DNA of 64,000 nt. Source: Pseudomonadota bacterium. GTDB lineage: Bacteria > Pseudomonadota > Gammaproteobacteria > CALCKW01. How positions within the stretch are numbered: the first letter of the stretch is position 1; the number at the start of each line of letters is the position of its first letter. Location of the stretch: the NCBI GenBank assembly GCA_039196715.1, contig JBCCUP010000013.1, forward strand, positions 1 through 64,000. The letters are read 5' to 3'. Of the stretch, positions 4,764-56,630 are shown piece after piece. The notes below the pieces were generated by a model. That model saw only the letters and a list, made by a program, of their open reading frames with translations, ran no database searches and was not told the DNA's origin. A program made the translations under genes and the position numbers.

Positions 4764-6341
4764 TCAGGTCTCGTAGACGATCACCGGGTCGTCGAAGTGC
4801 GACGGTACCTCGGAGCGCTTGATACCGGCCTCGTCCGGGTATGGCGACAGGCCCTGCTGGAAGGTAAAGAAGTTGTTGGGGTCGTACTTGCCTTTCACGA
4901 ACAGCAGGCTGTTGTAGGCGTCGCCCCAGTAGTTCCAGCGGTAGTTGTGGTTGTGGCGGTTGGGGTAGTTCTGGTACTTGTGACCGTTGGCAAAGCGCGC
5001 CACCACCTCGTTGAACCCAGCCAACCACTTCTCGCCGTCCGGGACGTCGCTGCCGACCCAGCCCGGGCGCATGAAGTTGTCGATGAACAGGTCGAAATCC
5101 ACGTCCCGATGGATGTAGGCGCAGTCGCTCGACGGGTTCGACGCGACCCCGCCGTACACCTCGAAGGCGCACATGTCGTAGCGGTTCGGCTTGGTGAGGT
5201 AGTAGTCGATGATCTCGTTCCACTCGACCGGGCTCAGCTCACGCGCGATGAAGTTGCTCTGCTTGGTCTCGAAGGTGCCGGGCATCGGCGGATCGTGGTA
5301 CCAGCTCAGCAAGAACGGGTTGAGGTCCTTGTAGCGCCCGACCTGGTGCTTGACCAGTTCGGCGCTGCCGACGTCCAGCAACGGTGCAATGAGCTCGCGG
5401 GCCTCAGCCTCGCTGCCGTTGAACATGCCCATCATGAAGAAATACTCTTCACTCGGGTCGCACGCGTGATCGCCCTTAACCACCGGTCCGTCCGGGCCCC
5501 ACGCGCATTGGTACCCCAGCCGCTCGGTCACGCCGTGGCGCACGTAGTCGCGCTGAAGCATCGGCAGCACCTCGGCGGACTCGCGGATGGGCCAGCGGAT
5601 GACGAAGCCCCAGACGTCGTCGAGGTGCGCCAGCTTGTAGCGGATCTGCAGCAACACGCCAAGCGTGTTACCGGTCGCGCCGCGCACCGCCCAGAACAGG
5701 TCGGCGTTGGTGTTGGCGTCGGCGTAGACGACCTGGCCGTCGTGCAGCATCATGCGAAAGGCGTCGATGGCGTCGCAGTTGAGGCCGAAATTGCGCGAGG
5801 TGAAACCGTAGCCACCGCCCATGCTGTGGCCGGCGACGCCGACGGTGTCGCACTCACCGCCCGGGACGTGCAGATTGTAGGGGTCGAGCTCTGTGTAGAC
5901 GTGGCCGAGCGTGGCGCCCGCACCGACCCACGCGTGGGTGTGGTCGGGCTCGATCAGGACGAAGTGCATCGGGCTGACGTCGATCACCATGCCGTCACAC
6001 ACGCTGTAGCCCGCATTGCAGTGCCCGCCACCGCGCACGCAGAACGGCATTGCCGGGTTCTCGTGCGCGAATTGCAAGCACGACCTGACGTCTTCGTGGT
6101 TCTCGCAGTAGACGATCATCGCGGGGTACGCGAGGTCGGGGTACATGTTGTGCCCGCGCCGGTCCTTCGCGTAGCTCGGGTTGTTCGGCAACACCACCTT
6201 GCCCAGCACCTTGGCCTGAAAGGCGTACAGTGCGTCCGAGCTGACCGGCAGCGCAGCCAACCCCTCTTCGCCAAGTGCATCGAGCGACTCTGTCAGCTCG
6301 CGGGCACGCAAGCGTGCGTTGGCGTTTGCAATGAGTGCCAT
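4764..6341 (-). CDS. FAD-linked oxidase, berberine-bridge type (bicovalent flavin)
   Basis: A 525-residue product of the PCMH-type FAD oxidase family. RGGGH (H107) and the GGECDTVG segment (C164) are the two residues that in BBE-like enzymes attach FAD both through 8-alpha-histidyl and 6-S-cysteinyl bonds. The C-terminal motif VKGKYDPNNFF is the usual BBE end. Such enzymes oxidise alcohols, sugars or amines and pass electrons to O2; the substrate here is unknown. The start at 6341 follows a GGGAGAGG ribosome site; an in-frame extension 123 bp upstream lacks family similarity. No Tat or Sec signal is evident, unlike many secreted relatives. It is the first gene of the minus-strand run with the cyclase and DUF917. 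Confidence 0.85.
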   Translation of the reverse strand: MALIANANARLRARELTESLDALGEEGLAALPVSSDALYAFQAKVLGKVVLPNNPSYAKDRRGHNMYPDLAYPAMIVYCENHEDVRSCLQFAHENPAMPFCVRGGGHCNAGYSVCDGMVIDVSPMHFVLIEPDHTHAWVGAGATLGHVYTELDPYNLHVPGGECDTVGVAGHSMGGGYGFTSRNFGLNCDAIDAFRMMLHDGQVVYADANTNADLFWAVRGATGNTLGVLLQIRYKLAHLDDVWGFVIRWPIRESAEVLPMLQRDYVRHGVTERLGYQCAWGPDGPVVKGDHACDPSEEYFFMMGMFNGSEAEARELIAPLLDVGSAELVKHQVGRYKDLNPFLLSWYHDPPMPGTFETKQSNFIARELSPVEWNEIIDYYLTKPNRYDMCAFEVYGGVASNPSSDCAYIHRDVDFDLFIDNFMRPGWVGSDVPDGEKWLAGFNEVVARFANGHKYQNYPNRHNHNYRWNYWGDAYNSLLFVKGKYDPNNFFTFQQGLSPYPDEAGIKRSEVPSHFDDPVIVYET

Positions 6342-33737: not shown

Positions 33738-34691
33738 ATGAACGGAGACCGCTGCTGCACCCCCGACGCCGCCCGCGGTCCGTCAGAGCACGAACCGTCC
33801 ACCCGCGTCCCAACCGACACACCCCCGTCGCCGGCCGCTGACGCGACACCGCAAATTGCGGTGTGCGCGATTCCCGGTGGCAACGCTATCGTCGGCACGC
33901 ACCACCCGGTGATCCAGCTCGACGAAGAGGGCCCGCGCCGCAAGAAGAAGGTCGCGGCCTTTCACATGATGCAGACCGCCGTGACCAACGCGCTGTTCGC
34001 CGCCTTCGTGGACGACACCGGTTACCGCACCGAAGCCGAACGCTACGGCTGGTCGTACGTGTTTCACCACCAGGTGGCCGGCGCCGTGGCGGATACGCTG
34101 GGCGCCCAGGAAGCCGCCTGGTGGCGACGCGTCGACGGCGCGAGTTGGCGCGCGATCAACGGCCCGGGCACCGAGGCGCAGTGCCTGCCGGACCACCCTG
34201 TCGTACACGTGAGCTGGCACGACGCGCAGGCCTTTGCCGACTGGGCGGGCGGGCGCTTGCCCACCGAAGCCGAGTGGGAGCACGCGGCGCGCGGTGGCCA
34301 CGGCGACATCCCCTTCCCCTGGGGCCACCGCGAGCCGGACGACAACGAGTTTCAGCCTTGCAATATCTGGCAAGGCGATTTCCCGATGCACAACACGGCC
34401 CTCGACGGCTACACCGCCACTGCGCCGGCCCGCTCGTACGAGCCGAACGGCTACGGCCTCTACAACATGTGCGGCAACGTCTGGGAGTGGATCGCCGAAC
34501 CGCTCGTGCTGCGCTCGCTGTCGAAGAAAAAGCGCGACCTCGCCAACAAACCCAAGGGCAGCAAACTGCTCAAGGGCGGCTCGTTTTTGTGCCACAAGAG
34601 CTACTGCTTCCGCTACCGCATCGCGGCGCGCACCGGCACCACCCCGGAGACCAGCACGGCCCACCAGGGCTTTCGGCTCGTCTTCTCCTGA
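33738..34691 (+). CDS. Formylglycine-generating enzyme (sulfatase-modifying factor)
   Basis: A 317-residue FGE/SUMF1 protein. Unlike most SUMF1-fold proteins it keeps the copper-binding active-site Cys pair in GGSFLCHKSYCFRYR (C285 and C290), which matches the functional human and actinobacterial enzymes. It would oxidise a Cys in the CxPxR motif of type I sulfatases to formylglycine. No sulfatase gene lies in this window, so the client is elsewhere. The first 35 residues are Pro/Asp-rich and not part of the domain; no signal peptide is seen, so it acts in the cytosol. Confidence 0.9.
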   Translation: MNGDRCCTPDAARGPSEHEPSTRVPTDTPPSPAADATPQIAVCAIPGGNAIVGTHHPVIQLDEEGPRRKKKVAAFHMMQTAVTNALFAAFVDDTGYRTEAERYGWSYVFHHQVAGAVADTLGAQEAAWWRRVDGASWRAINGPGTEAQCLPDHPVVHVSWHDAQAFADWAGGRLPTEAEWEHAARGGHGDIPFPWGHREPDDNEFQPCNIWQGDFPMHNTALDGYTATAPARSYEPNGYGLYNMCGNVWEWIAEPLVLRSLSKKKRDLANKPKGSKLLKGGSFLCHKSYCFRYRIAARTGTTPETSTAHQGFRLVFS

Positions 34692-53810: not shown

Positions 53811-54590
53811 GTGGCACACACACTTCACGGCAAGACCGCCGTCGTCACCGGCTCCACCTCGGGCATCGGCCTCGGCATCGCCCACGAGCTCGCCCGGGCC
53901 GGGGCCAAACTTGTCATAAACTCCTACACCAACAGTGACGAAGACCACGCGCTCGCGGCGTCCATGAGCGACACGCACGGTGTCGAGGTGCGCTATGTGC
54001 AGGCCGACATGGCCGACGGCGCGGCCTGCCGTGCGCTCATCGCCGACGCCGGTGCCTGCGATATCCTGGTCAACAACGCCGGCATCCAGCACGTGGCGCC
54101 GATCGACCAGTTCCCGTCCGACACCTGGGACCGGATCATTGCGATCAACATGAACTCCACCTTTCACACCACCGCCGCGGCGCTGCCGATGATGCGCGCT
54201 GCCGGCTGGGGTCGGGTGATCAACGTGGCCTCGGCGCATGGGCTCACGGCATCGCCCTACAAGTCCGCCTACGTCACGGCCAAACACGGCGTGGTGGGTT
54301 TCACCAAGGTGACGGCGCTCGAGACAGCCGAGGAACCGATCACCGCCAACGCCATCTGCCCGGGCTACGTGCTCACGCCGCTGGTCGAGGCCCAGATTCC
54401 GGACACCATGAAAGAGTACGGAATGGACCGCGACAGCGTCGTCAGGGACATCCTGCTCGCGCGCCAGCCCTCCAAGCAGTTCGCGTCAGTCGAACAGATC
54501 GGCCAGACCACCGTATTCCTCTGCTCCCCCGGCGCCGATCAGATGACCGGTACCACCCTGAGTGTCGACGGCGGTTGGACCGCGCTCTAG
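53811..54590 (+). CDS. bdhA: 3-hydroxybutyrate dehydrogenase
   Basis: A 259-residue short-chain dehydrogenase that oxidises (R)-3-hydroxybutyrate to acetoacetate with NAD. TGSTSGIGLG is the cofactor loop, NNAGIQHVAPI and YVTAKHGVVGFTK are characteristic, and the length fits BdhA. GTG start, 57 bp after phaZ. It handles the monomer released by the depolymerase. Confidence 0.92.
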   Translation: MAHTLHGKTAVVTGSTSGIGLGIAHELARAGAKLVINSYTNSDEDHALAASMSDTHGVEVRYVQADMADGAACRALIADAGACDILVNNAGIQHVAPIDQFPSDTWDRIIAINMNSTFHTTAAALPMMRAAGWGRVINVASAHGLTASPYKSAYVTAKHGVVGFTKVTALETAEEPITANAICPGYVLTPLVEAQIPDTMKEYGMDRDSVVRDILLARQPSKQFASVEQIGQTTVFLCSPGADQMTGTTLSVDGGWTAL

Positions 54591-54625: not shown

Positions 54626-54730
54626 CACCACCACTTCGCCGCATCTTGCTGCGCAAGGATGCAGCTCCCACAAGAAGACCCGATACCGCCCCATGCCCCG
54701 TGGGAGCTTCGTCGTTGCGTAGCAACACGG
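54626..54730. repeat. REP/iREP pair 1 (BIME)
   Basis: Two short hairpins in inverted orientation. The left unit (54626-54671) ends in GCTCCCAC and holds a GCATCTTGC/GCAAGGATGC stem. The right unit (54700-54730) starts GTGGGAGC and holds GTTGC-GTA-GCAAC. Four pairs of this kind plus a half unit lie around the RAYT gene. Confidence 0.8.
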
Positions 54731-54754
54731 AGCGAAAAAACTCCGCTCCTAGTT

Positions 54755-54859
54755 CACCACCGCTTCGCTGCATCTTGCTCCGCAAGGATGCAGCTCCCAC
54801 GGCAGCCCCTGCACCGCCTCATGAGCCCGTGGGAGCGCCGTCGTCACGTAGTGACACGG
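54755..54859. repeat. REP/iREP pair 2 (BIME)
   Basis: Same layout as pair 1 (left unit 54755-54800, right unit 54829-54859). The right hairpin reads GTCAC-GTA-GTGAC: relative to the other copies, bases on both arms have changed together so that pairing is kept. Confidence 0.8.
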
Positions 54860-54991
54860 GGGGGCCGCCTAGGCGCGAATGTGTTTCCCAAGCGGTCCAG
54901 CACCCGCAAGAAAAGCCAATGGCAAGGCAACCAGAGCTGGCTTCGACCAAGCGTGGCGTCATTCTGATTGCACGCCAACAGAACACACCCC

Positions 54992-55447
54992 ATGGCCCAC
55001 AGCCACCGTCTGCGACTCGGCCGTGTCTCCCGCATCGGCCTGAGCTACCACGTGCGCTTTTCGACACGAGACCGGACGCCAAGCCTGTCCGAGCTGCACA
55101 CCGCGCGGTCCGTGATCCGCTCACTGCAGCAGGAGGACAGGGCAGAGCGAACAGCCACCGTGTGTTTCGTCGTCATGCCGGACCACGTGCATTGGCTGCT
55201 CACCCTCAAACACGGGTCACTCGGTCGCAGTGTTAGCAACGTCAAACACTACAGCGCACGGCGCCTCGCGCCGCGTATCCAGTGGCAAAGCGGCTTTTTT
55301 GATCATGCGTTGCGAACGACAGACAGCCTCCGAAATACTGCACGCTACATCATTGCCAACCCGCTGAGAGCCGGACTGGTTTCGTCTGTGGCTGACTATC
55401 CGCACTGGGATGCCGTGTGGCTGAACGGCGGCGATGCAGTGATCTGA
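54992..55447 (+). CDS. REP-associated tyrosine transposase (RAYT)
   Basis: A 151-residue Y1 transposase of the IS200/IS605 fold. The HUH motif is H65-V-H67 in MPDHVHWLL and the likely nucleophile is Y119 in ARYIIANPLRAGLV; FFDHALRTTDSLRN is a family stretch. RAYTs are single-copy, domesticated relatives of IS200 transposases that cut and join single-stranded REP hairpins. Here REP/iREP pairs stand on both sides, two upstream and two and a half downstream, supporting the match of enzyme and substrate. The ATG at 54992 is used; a TTG 24 bp upstream is less likely. Confidence 0.9.
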   Translation: MAHSHRLRLGRVSRIGLSYHVRFSTRDRTPSLSELHTARSVIRSLQQEDRAERTATVCFVVMPDHVHWLLTLKHGSLGRSVSNVKHYSARRLAPRIQWQSGFFDHALRTTDSLRNTARYIIANPLRAGLVSSVADYPHWDAVWLNGGDAVI

Positions 55448-55488
55448 CGGTATTGAATCCGTGGCGGTTGGGCATGCGTCGCCTGGTT

Positions 55489-55595
55489 CGCCACCGCTTC
55501 GCCGCATCTTGCTCCGCAAGGATGCGACTCCCACAGAGAGGACCCAACACCACCTCATGACCCCGTGGGAGCGCCGTCGTTGCGTAGCAACACGG
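55489..55595. repeat. REP/iREP pair 3 (BIME)
   Basis: Left unit 55489-55534, right unit 55565-55595, same hairpins and same inverted layout as pairs 1 and 2. It starts 42 bp after the RAYT stop. Confidence 0.8.
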
Positions 55596-55634
55596 TGGGG
55601 CAGCCTAGGCGCGAACTAGGCCCCACGCCAGGCT

Positions 55635-55741
55635 CACCACCGCTTCGCCGCATCTTGCTTCGCAAGGATGCGACTCCCACACAGAGGACCCAACACCACC
55701 CCATGACCCCGTGGGAGCGCCGTCGTTGCGTAGCAACACGG
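55635..55741. repeat. REP/iREP pair 4 (BIME)
   Basis: Left unit 55635-55680, right unit 55711-55741. The right unit matches that of pair 3 base for base, and the spacer between units is nearly the same, so pairs 3 and 4 are probably a recent tandem duplication. Confidence 0.8.
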
Positions 55742-55766
55742 CGCGAATTAGGCCCCACGCTAGGCT

Positions 55767-55812
55767 CACCACCGCTTCGCCGAATCTTGCTGCGCAAGGA
55801 TGCGGCTCCCAC
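55767..55812. repeat. Single left-type REP unit
   Basis: A left unit with the GCAAGGATGC arm and the GCTCCCAC end but no right partner; its other arm reads GAATCTTGC, one base off. It ends nine bases before the stop of the CHMI gene, so that gene's mRNA would carry it. Confidence 0.7.
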
Positions 55813-55820
55813 GGCGCGCC

Positions 55821-56195
55821 TCATGCCCCCATGGGCGTGTCGTCGCGGTAGCGGGGCAGCGGGTCGCCGTCCACGTGGTGCACGGTGGTGAGGCAGGTGG
55901 CCGGGCTGTACTCGAGCGCGAGGCTGAAGAAACAACTCTGCGGCAGTTGTGCTCGGAGTTGGGCCTCGAGGTCGTCCATCAGCGCCTGTGTGAACGCGGT
56001 GTCGCGGTGGGGTTTCGGCAACAGGCTGACCGACACCTTGAGGTGGCGCCGATGAAACCGCTCGGCCGGATACGCGCGCCCTTTGCACTCTTCAGCGCCG
56101 GGGTCGTGCGCGTTGATCACCTGTTCGACCAACGCCAGAACGGCCACGGCGTCCAGCGTCAGGTCGGCGGAGTAGTGCAGTTCGCAGTGGGGCAT
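55821..56195 (-). CDS. 5-carboxymethyl-2-hydroxymuconate isomerase (tautomerase superfamily)
   Basis: A 124-residue CHMI-type tautomerase. The start MPHCELHYSADL has Pro2, which becomes the N-terminal catalytic base after Met removal, and the family stretch GKRxYP-like KGRAYPAERFHRRHLKVSVSLL. CHMI acts in homoprotocatechuate (4-hydroxyphenylacetate) breakdown. No other hpa genes are in the window, so it is an orphan here. The ATG at 56195 gives the required N-terminal Pro; upstream in-frame starts would mask it. Confidence 0.83.
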   Translation of the reverse strand: MPHCELHYSADLTLDAVAVLALVEQVINAHDPGAEECKGRAYPAERFHRRHLKVSVSLLPKPHRDTAFTQALMDDLEAQLRAQLPQSCFFSLALEYSPATCLTTVHHVDGDPLPRYRDDTPMGA

Positions 56196-56630
56196 CGCAA
56201 TCGGGAAACGAGCGGAGCAGACCGGTGGCCACATCGTAGCACCGCCACACCGGCGCCCCGCGCCCGCTCGACCTGACAACCGGCGTCATGCCCCCTGGCC
56301 AGGCACCCTTGGCCAGGCACCCTTGGCTGGGCGCCCCTGGCCAGGCGCCTCCGGCCAGGCGGCTTAGGCGTGACACCTCCTGCAAAGGACCAATGGTCGG
56401 GTGCTCCCTCGCCCCTCGCCAAGCATCTTGAGCCGGGCCCCCCGGCAAGATGCCACCCCGCCGTGCCCCCCTTGCTGGGCGCCCCGCTGAACCCACTGCC
56501 CAGGCCACGGTACGACTATTGCTCGACGGGGTGCAGCGCTGCGGCACGCGCGTGGTGTCTGTCGTATGCACACGATGCGAACGACAGACCGCTCACGCAG
56601 CCTCTCCACACACTGCCAGGGACATTGAAC
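56196..56630. other. Intergenic region with short tandem repeats
   Basis: This 435-bp gap between the CHMI gene (minus) and the small DUF4124 gene (plus) has no supported gene. Its main feature is the 14-bp tandem array at 56297-56366. Confidence 0.45.
56297..56366. repeat. Five tandem 14-bp repeats
   Basis: Five units based on GGCCAGGCACCCTT. The first two are identical, the third to fifth diverge progressively. Such short arrays often vary in copy number between strains. Confidence 0.7.

Follow-up and report, generated by a model that had tools for sequence, protein, structure and literature searches.

A RAYT gene within its own REP/iREP array in a Granulosicoccaceae genome whose REPs share one architecture and differ widely in sequence

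We analysed a window of 64,000 nucleotides, the whole stretch of DNA presented above, together with the assembly from which it comes (G000, a Granulosicoccaceae MAG of 4.95 Mb in 169 contigs) and three genus-mates used for comparison (G001, G002 and G003); the analysis was computational and its basis is this one fragmented MAG. Between two convergent genes, a plus-strand short-chain dehydrogenase gene that ends at 54590 and a minus-strand ORF that ends at 55821, lies a plus-strand gene (54992–55447) which encodes, from its ATG, a RAYT (TnpAREP) protein of 151 residues, identified by HUH and Tyr motifs, family profile and fold match. The protein scores 117.8 bits against the NCBIfam REP_Tyr_transpos profile (cut-off 80) and 23.7 bits against the IS200 profile, under the cut-off of 55. 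The HUH motif H65-V66-H67 is encoded at 55184–55192 and the catalytic Tyr119 at 55346–55348, both on the plus strand, and H65, H67 and Y119 are invariant across an alignment of 29 sequences comprising the RAYT and its relatives. PDB entry 4er8 is matched by sequence and is also the top fold match (E = 2.6e-9) of an AlphaFold2 model with a mean pLDDT of 88. The gene is an intact HUH/Tyr transposase gene of the RAYT type, confirming what the sequence-only reading had made of its HUH and Tyr motifs, and it is the only one in the assembly, which is 96% complete, to score over the family cut-off.

IS608 and ISDra2, of the IS200/IS605 group, have the same HUH/Tyr fold, and their hairpins with unpaired bases are recognised as single-stranded DNA (PMC8266576); the RAYT gene differs from that group in being single-copy and in failing to reach the IS200 cut-off of NCBIfam. 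All four genus genomes also encode more distant proteins of at least 300 aa that resemble Y1-type transposases (in G000 at C1:122690–123097, with other weak matches); these score at most 59.6 bits, under the RAYT cut-off of 80. A phage or plasmid origin of the RAYT is not supported: no relatives were found on phages, and the 14 plasmid records with relatives all show less than 60% identity.

The gene is flanked on both sides by REP units, which we read foot first, such that the strand carrying GTGGGAG gives the REP orientation, with the A units on the minus strand and the B units on the plus strand. Upstream lie A1 (54635–54671; 37 nt, with its GTGGGAG foot at 54671), B1 (54700–54736), A2 (54764–54800) and B2 (54829–54879; 51 nt, with a 14-nt GGGGCCGCCTAGG-type insert followed by a CGCGAA tail); downstream lie A3 (55498–55534), B3 (55565–55615; 51 nt, again with a 14-nt insert), A4 (55644–55680), B4 (55711–55747) and A5 (55776–55812). 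The count made from the sequence at the outset, two pairs upstream and two plus a half unit downstream, is borne out, and the half unit, A5, has a decayed plus-strand partner, B5, at about 55831–55855, recognised from the repeat family and by reading the sequence, which enters the 3′ end of the minus-strand ORF; the 29 nt around it are 79% identical to a reference repeat copy. The GTGGGAGC edge that had been ascribed to every unit is present in seven of the nine, A3 and A4 starting with a GTGGGAGT foot instead. Within each pair the GTGGGAG edges face each other, about 28–30 nt apart.

The locus shows the regular spacing, alternating orientation, tandem repetition and intergenic position of a BIME, and the HUH motif, catalytic Tyr, family profile, single copy and inverted flanking REPs of a RAYT/TnpAREP system. 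The A-unit pattern, with up to three mismatches allowed, has five matches in the 64 kb of the window against 0.00 in shuffled sequence, all of them at the locus. The sequence-only reading was right both in seeing none in the rest of the window and in regarding the RAYT as nested in its own REP/iREP array. This layout is already known: roughly every third rayt gene has a BIME beside it, and that of E. coli is flanked by BIME-2 on either side (PMC2817692); the locus is a genuine REPtron of known kind, a single-copy gene within a BIME-2-like tandem array. Just downstream of it, and unrelated to the REPs, about five copies of a 14-bp tandem repeat, CCCCTGGCCAGGCA, occupy positions 56292–56360.

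The same reading had gone on to propose that the locus is a source for REP dispersal. Across the whole assembly the A-unit pattern has the same five matches, and only one unit outside the RAYT locus lies within two mismatches of any window unit (268 units compared). Because the flanking REPs are unique to the locus in this assembly, the source-locus reading is not supported in its simple form. A RAYT locus that served as the template for dispersing the genome's REPs of this sequence would account for the adjacency of gene and array, and the REPs that flank the gene in other genomes often belong to the abundant class (PMC3686654), but the confinement of the A-unit pattern to the locus and the solitary close unit elsewhere largely refute a template of this kind for this assembly, and we consider it highly improbable.

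The outcome is different for REPs defined by architecture. With the nine window units as its basis, a covariance model has at least 149 matches in G000 (150 candidates scored) and 47 in G001, but a single one in G003 and none in G002. The stem-blind pattern GTGGGAGN{25,27}GCGA gives 181 matches in G000 against 25 for the reversed control and shows no excess over control in G002 or G003, and a finer REP pattern gives 76 matches against 0 for the control in G000, 13 against 0 in G001, none in G002 or G003, and a single match in the other 54 genomes. The RAYT itself has two matches in G001, and none were found in G002 or G003; a search of the genus-mates for an orthologous locus without the RAYT found no usable flank. 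The REP units that share this architecture in G000 number at least 268 and form about 48 tandem arrays, the first figure being a lower bound counted in stretches around clusters, and the second being a matter of judgement, reached after merging contig ends with common types. The strict sequence class thus has no copies elsewhere, an outcome that the sequence-only reading had named as telling against it, and the structural class does; the genome-wide dispersal of same-architecture REPs indicates that a RAYT/REP system exists. The array at the RAYT looks like one of the roughly 48 arrays, all divergent, rather than a template from which the rest were made.

The arrays are difficult to assemble: 42 of the 62 REP clusters are no more than 400 nt from the end of a contig, a zone that makes up 2.7% of the genome, so that the arrays break the assembly and the REP count is a lower bound. 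The largest array, at 34085–35297 of contig C48 (L214) and 1–500 of C54 (L215), has at least 20 units and is cut by a contig break; in it, 38-nt REPs alternate with 51-nt REPs that have an extended upper stem, with a period of 146 nt. Short REPs of 26 nt (e.g. GTGGGAGCCGCGCCGCGCGCGGCGAA) alternate with the long type in the G000 arrays L107, L110 and L092, and resemble those of relatives in other bacteria. Matches of Rfam ‘mir-1451’ on a REP pair were dismissed as chance, scoring 35.5 against a gathering score of 85.

The architecture common to the units comprises a (YY)GTGGGAG foot, a 7-bp stem, a bulged C, a 5-bp stem, usually a GNA triloop, and a GCGAA tail; in 128 distinct ungapped 37-mers, positions 7–34 to 13–28 pair, C14 is unpaired, and positions 15–27 to 19–23 pair around a three-base loop, giving a hairpin of 34 nt from foot to stem end. 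Among 125 distinct units with a perfect foot, C14 is kept in 124 and the loop is of the GNA type in 88; GNA loops closed by G-C pairs form extraordinarily stable, nuclease-resistant DNA mini-hairpins (PMC4686876). In a set of 36 units that represents many arrays, pairing holds in 96.3% of cells, and both sides have changed in 11 of the 12 pairs. Covariation scores 0.740, compared with 0.193 (sd 0.020) when shuffled and at most 0.135 for slid versions. As the units had originally been found by a structure model, the pairing test was repeated on stem-blind units, which are 94% paired against 62% when shuffled, in stretches still mostly picked by the structure model.

On the GTGGGAG strand, G.T events outnumber A.C events by 42 to 9 (p = 3e-6), or by 27 to 8 when counted by sequence family, where A.C cells represent G.T pairs of the opposite strand, events in related units are partly dependent and the model tolerates G.T better than A.C; a tally of cells in the stem-blind set gives about 43 G.T and 11 A.C. 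The excess of G.T suggests that stem pairing is kept on the GTGGGAG strand, and because orientations alternate within arrays, such a bias would be more readily explained by a strand-specific process on single-stranded DNA than by selection acting at the transcript level. In 96% of units a pyrimidine immediately precedes the foot, with CT the commonest dinucleotide, in line with the E. coli TnpAREP, which cleaves at CT beside the REP and acts on REP and not on iREP (PMC8266576).

The 14-nt GC-rich insert of B2 and B3 (consensus GGGGCCCGCCTAGG; window positions 54860–54873 and 55596–55609) also occurs in stretches L074, L076, L078, L082, L083, L084, L086, L097 and L099. It is found 31–32 nt after the foot and directly before the tail, in REPs with differing stems, with a perfect foot at that distance in 16 of the 19 cases examined, and has 18 matches genome-wide against 0 for the control and none in G001–G003. 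It looks like a common 3′ module that may be exchanged among REP families.

Within this architecture the population is highly diverse. The 268 units resolve into 201 distinct 25-mers, the commonest of which has eight copies; 14 units lie within two mismatches of it and most are 7–13 mismatches away. REPIN populations have been modelled around one master sequence (PMC8049555), and pseudomonads have hundreds of perfect copies per REP class (PMC3686654); here we found no abundant master with classes one or two mismatches around it. Best stem identity averages 0.91 within arrays and 0.90 outside them, and some types recur in two to five arrays, which weakens the notion that stems are strictly private to arrays; family counts serve as a rough guide only, single-linkage clustering having chained 113 of the 268 units into one family. 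Partner types also recur together (F1 with F3 in four arrays, F8 with F9 in two, and F5 with F6 in two), and the arrays on contigs C8 and C127 have their linker in common as well, which supports the pair being moved or copied as a unit.

Such diversity could instead reflect a history of multiple RAYTs, in which the stem families were spread by different enzymes, now lost or unassembled, and the present RAYT serves the nine flanking units only. RAYTs of Pseudomonas and Stenotrophomonas each have their own REP class (PMC3686654), G001 has two RAYTs with differing REP lengths (C571 with a long REP, C210 with short REPs), and most arrays abut contig ends, where genes could be missed. Nevertheless, only one RAYT passes the family cut-off in a genome that is 96% complete, the foot, the position of C14, the loop type and the tail are common to all families, and 201 distinct 25-mers would require very many enzymes, for which reasons we regard this history as unlikely.

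For comparison with relatives we assembled 81 RAYT loci, 80 from a genome collection plus the second G001 gene. GTRGGAG feet occur within 700 nt of the gene at 75 of these loci, where their density is 5.0 per kb, falling to 0.72 per kb at greater distance, and the hairpins of relatives mostly measure 20–23 nt from foot to stem end, with single short stems and the GCGAA/T tail seen here. In the protein tree the Granulosicoccaceae RAYTs form one clade (support 99/98) among short-REP relatives, and the next supported set (97/85) adds Halothiobacillus, Alcanivorax and a Rhodobacteraceae MAG (L185), whose REP is longer and has a GAA loop and, by our reading, an internal loop instead of the single bulged C. 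As relatives widely have this foot and tail on mostly short hairpins, the long bulged form of the hairpin is probably derived. The second G001 RAYT (C210, L125) is flanked, at about 5225–5252 and 6285–6340, by a further 14-bp tandem repeat, CGTGTGACGGACCA, which adjoins the short REPs of that gene.

As to where the REPs lie relative to genes, a point that the sequence-only reading had raised, they are mostly at gene 3′ ends: of 73 flanks scored with a crude GC3-contrast ORF caller, 57 have the 3′ end turned towards the array, in line with REPs elsewhere (PMC3733652). The arrays have tandem periods of about 125–155 nt, in which the two orientations alternate. Both position and period would suit hairpins kept by the host as 3′-end elements (for termination, mRNA stability or gyrase sites) and amplified by recombination or slippage, with the RAYT incidental or ancestral, and such roles have been described for REPs (PMC2817692, PMC3733652). 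However, a terminator needs no foot, bulged C or tail; pairing is favoured on the GTGGGAG strand despite the alternating orientations; REPs are present in the RAYT-bearing G000 and G001 and absent or nearly so in the RAYT-lacking G002 and G003; and feet cluster at RAYT genes across bacteria. That the arrays are mainly host-function elements seems to us decidedly improbable.

Compared with known systems, the window RAYT falls in the same protein clade as the group 3 TnpAREP/REP systems (Pseudomonas, GTAG-1 repeats; PMC3686654, PMC3733652, PMC8266576), grouping with Pseudomonas-type RAYTs and lacking a C-terminal extension, in a tree on which the E. coli sequence is the single one with a published group label and the sole representative of group 2. 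REPs of orthogroup IV, GTGGGAGC...GCGAA/T (PMC3686654), have the GTRGGAG foot and GCGAA/T tail found here, and group 3 likewise has inverted pairs around the gene. The REPs themselves depart from group 3, whose palindromes are short and generally perfect: the 34-nt hairpin here has a bulged C and an upper stem where most relatives have 20–23 nt, and no exact REP class is abundant. The E. coli rayT/BIME-2 system of group 2 (PMC2817692, PMC8266576) resembles the present one in its tandem BIMEs on both sides of the RAYT, in its long REPs with an irregular stem, and in a specificity for the REP strand that is suggested here too. It differs in the protein, which is 27% identical, and in the C-terminal extension of about 20 residues that marks group 2 and that the window RAYT lacks; the irregularity also differs in kind, being a single unpaired C on the 5′ arm here and the conserved mismatches A12A13-G26C27 in the E. 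coli REP. With the REPINs of P. fluorescens SBW25 and enterobacteria (PMC3116915, PMC8049555) the population has in common inverted pairs, a single-copy RAYT, RAYT-adjacent clusters and similar totals, but it has no master sequence and its units are mostly in arrays. Earlier work has already described REPs whose stems change while remaining palindromic, their location at gene 3′ ends and their tandem clustering (PMC2817692, PMC3733652, PMC3116915). Neither a group-3-like RAYT with long bulged REPs nor so diverse a REP population in a single genome was found described in the part of the open-access literature covered, which is weak evidence.

We favour a model in which one RAYT reads hairpin shape and end motifs, pairs are mobile and arrays drift locally, and consider this model as a whole rather probable. 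The RAYT would bind the GTGGGAG strand as folded single-stranded DNA, reading the (YY)GTGGGAG foot, the bulged C14, the GNA-type loop and the GCGAA tail while ignoring stem sequence; it would cleave at the two pyrimidines that immediately precede the foot, and would move or copy REP–iREP pairs. Arrays would then lengthen and homogenise locally, their stems drifting while pairing is retained, and the RAYT-adjacent array would be one drifting array among many rather than a recent master copy. It is from the covariation that we infer that the RAYT may recognise the hairpins; a single RAYT could control all the arrays. Several points weigh against the model: the flanking class is confined to the locus, whereas the cognate classes of pseudomonads are abundant (PMC3686654); other RAYTs may be missing, given the 42 of 62 clusters that abut contig ends; simple recombination or slippage, with no part played by a RAYT, could account for local amplification; and a stem family is not always limited to one array. 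More tentatively, and as a possibility that we hold with reserve, a group-3-type RAYT with long bulged REPs may read shape and end motifs in this way and so sustain a masterless population, one enzyme serving dozens of local arrays that each develop stems of their own.

The system bears on REP recognition by RAYTs and on the spread of REPs, matters in which the two groups studied so far use different strategies (PMC8266576). The genome described here is a natural counterpart of a SELEX experiment, in which about 200 distinct variants keep nothing constant but foot and tail, one unpaired C, the type of loop and the base pairing, and the population thereby gives a clear prediction for biochemical recognition. 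The system cuts across the rule that group 3 has short perfect palindromes, and its REPs form a population that lies outside the master-sequence model.
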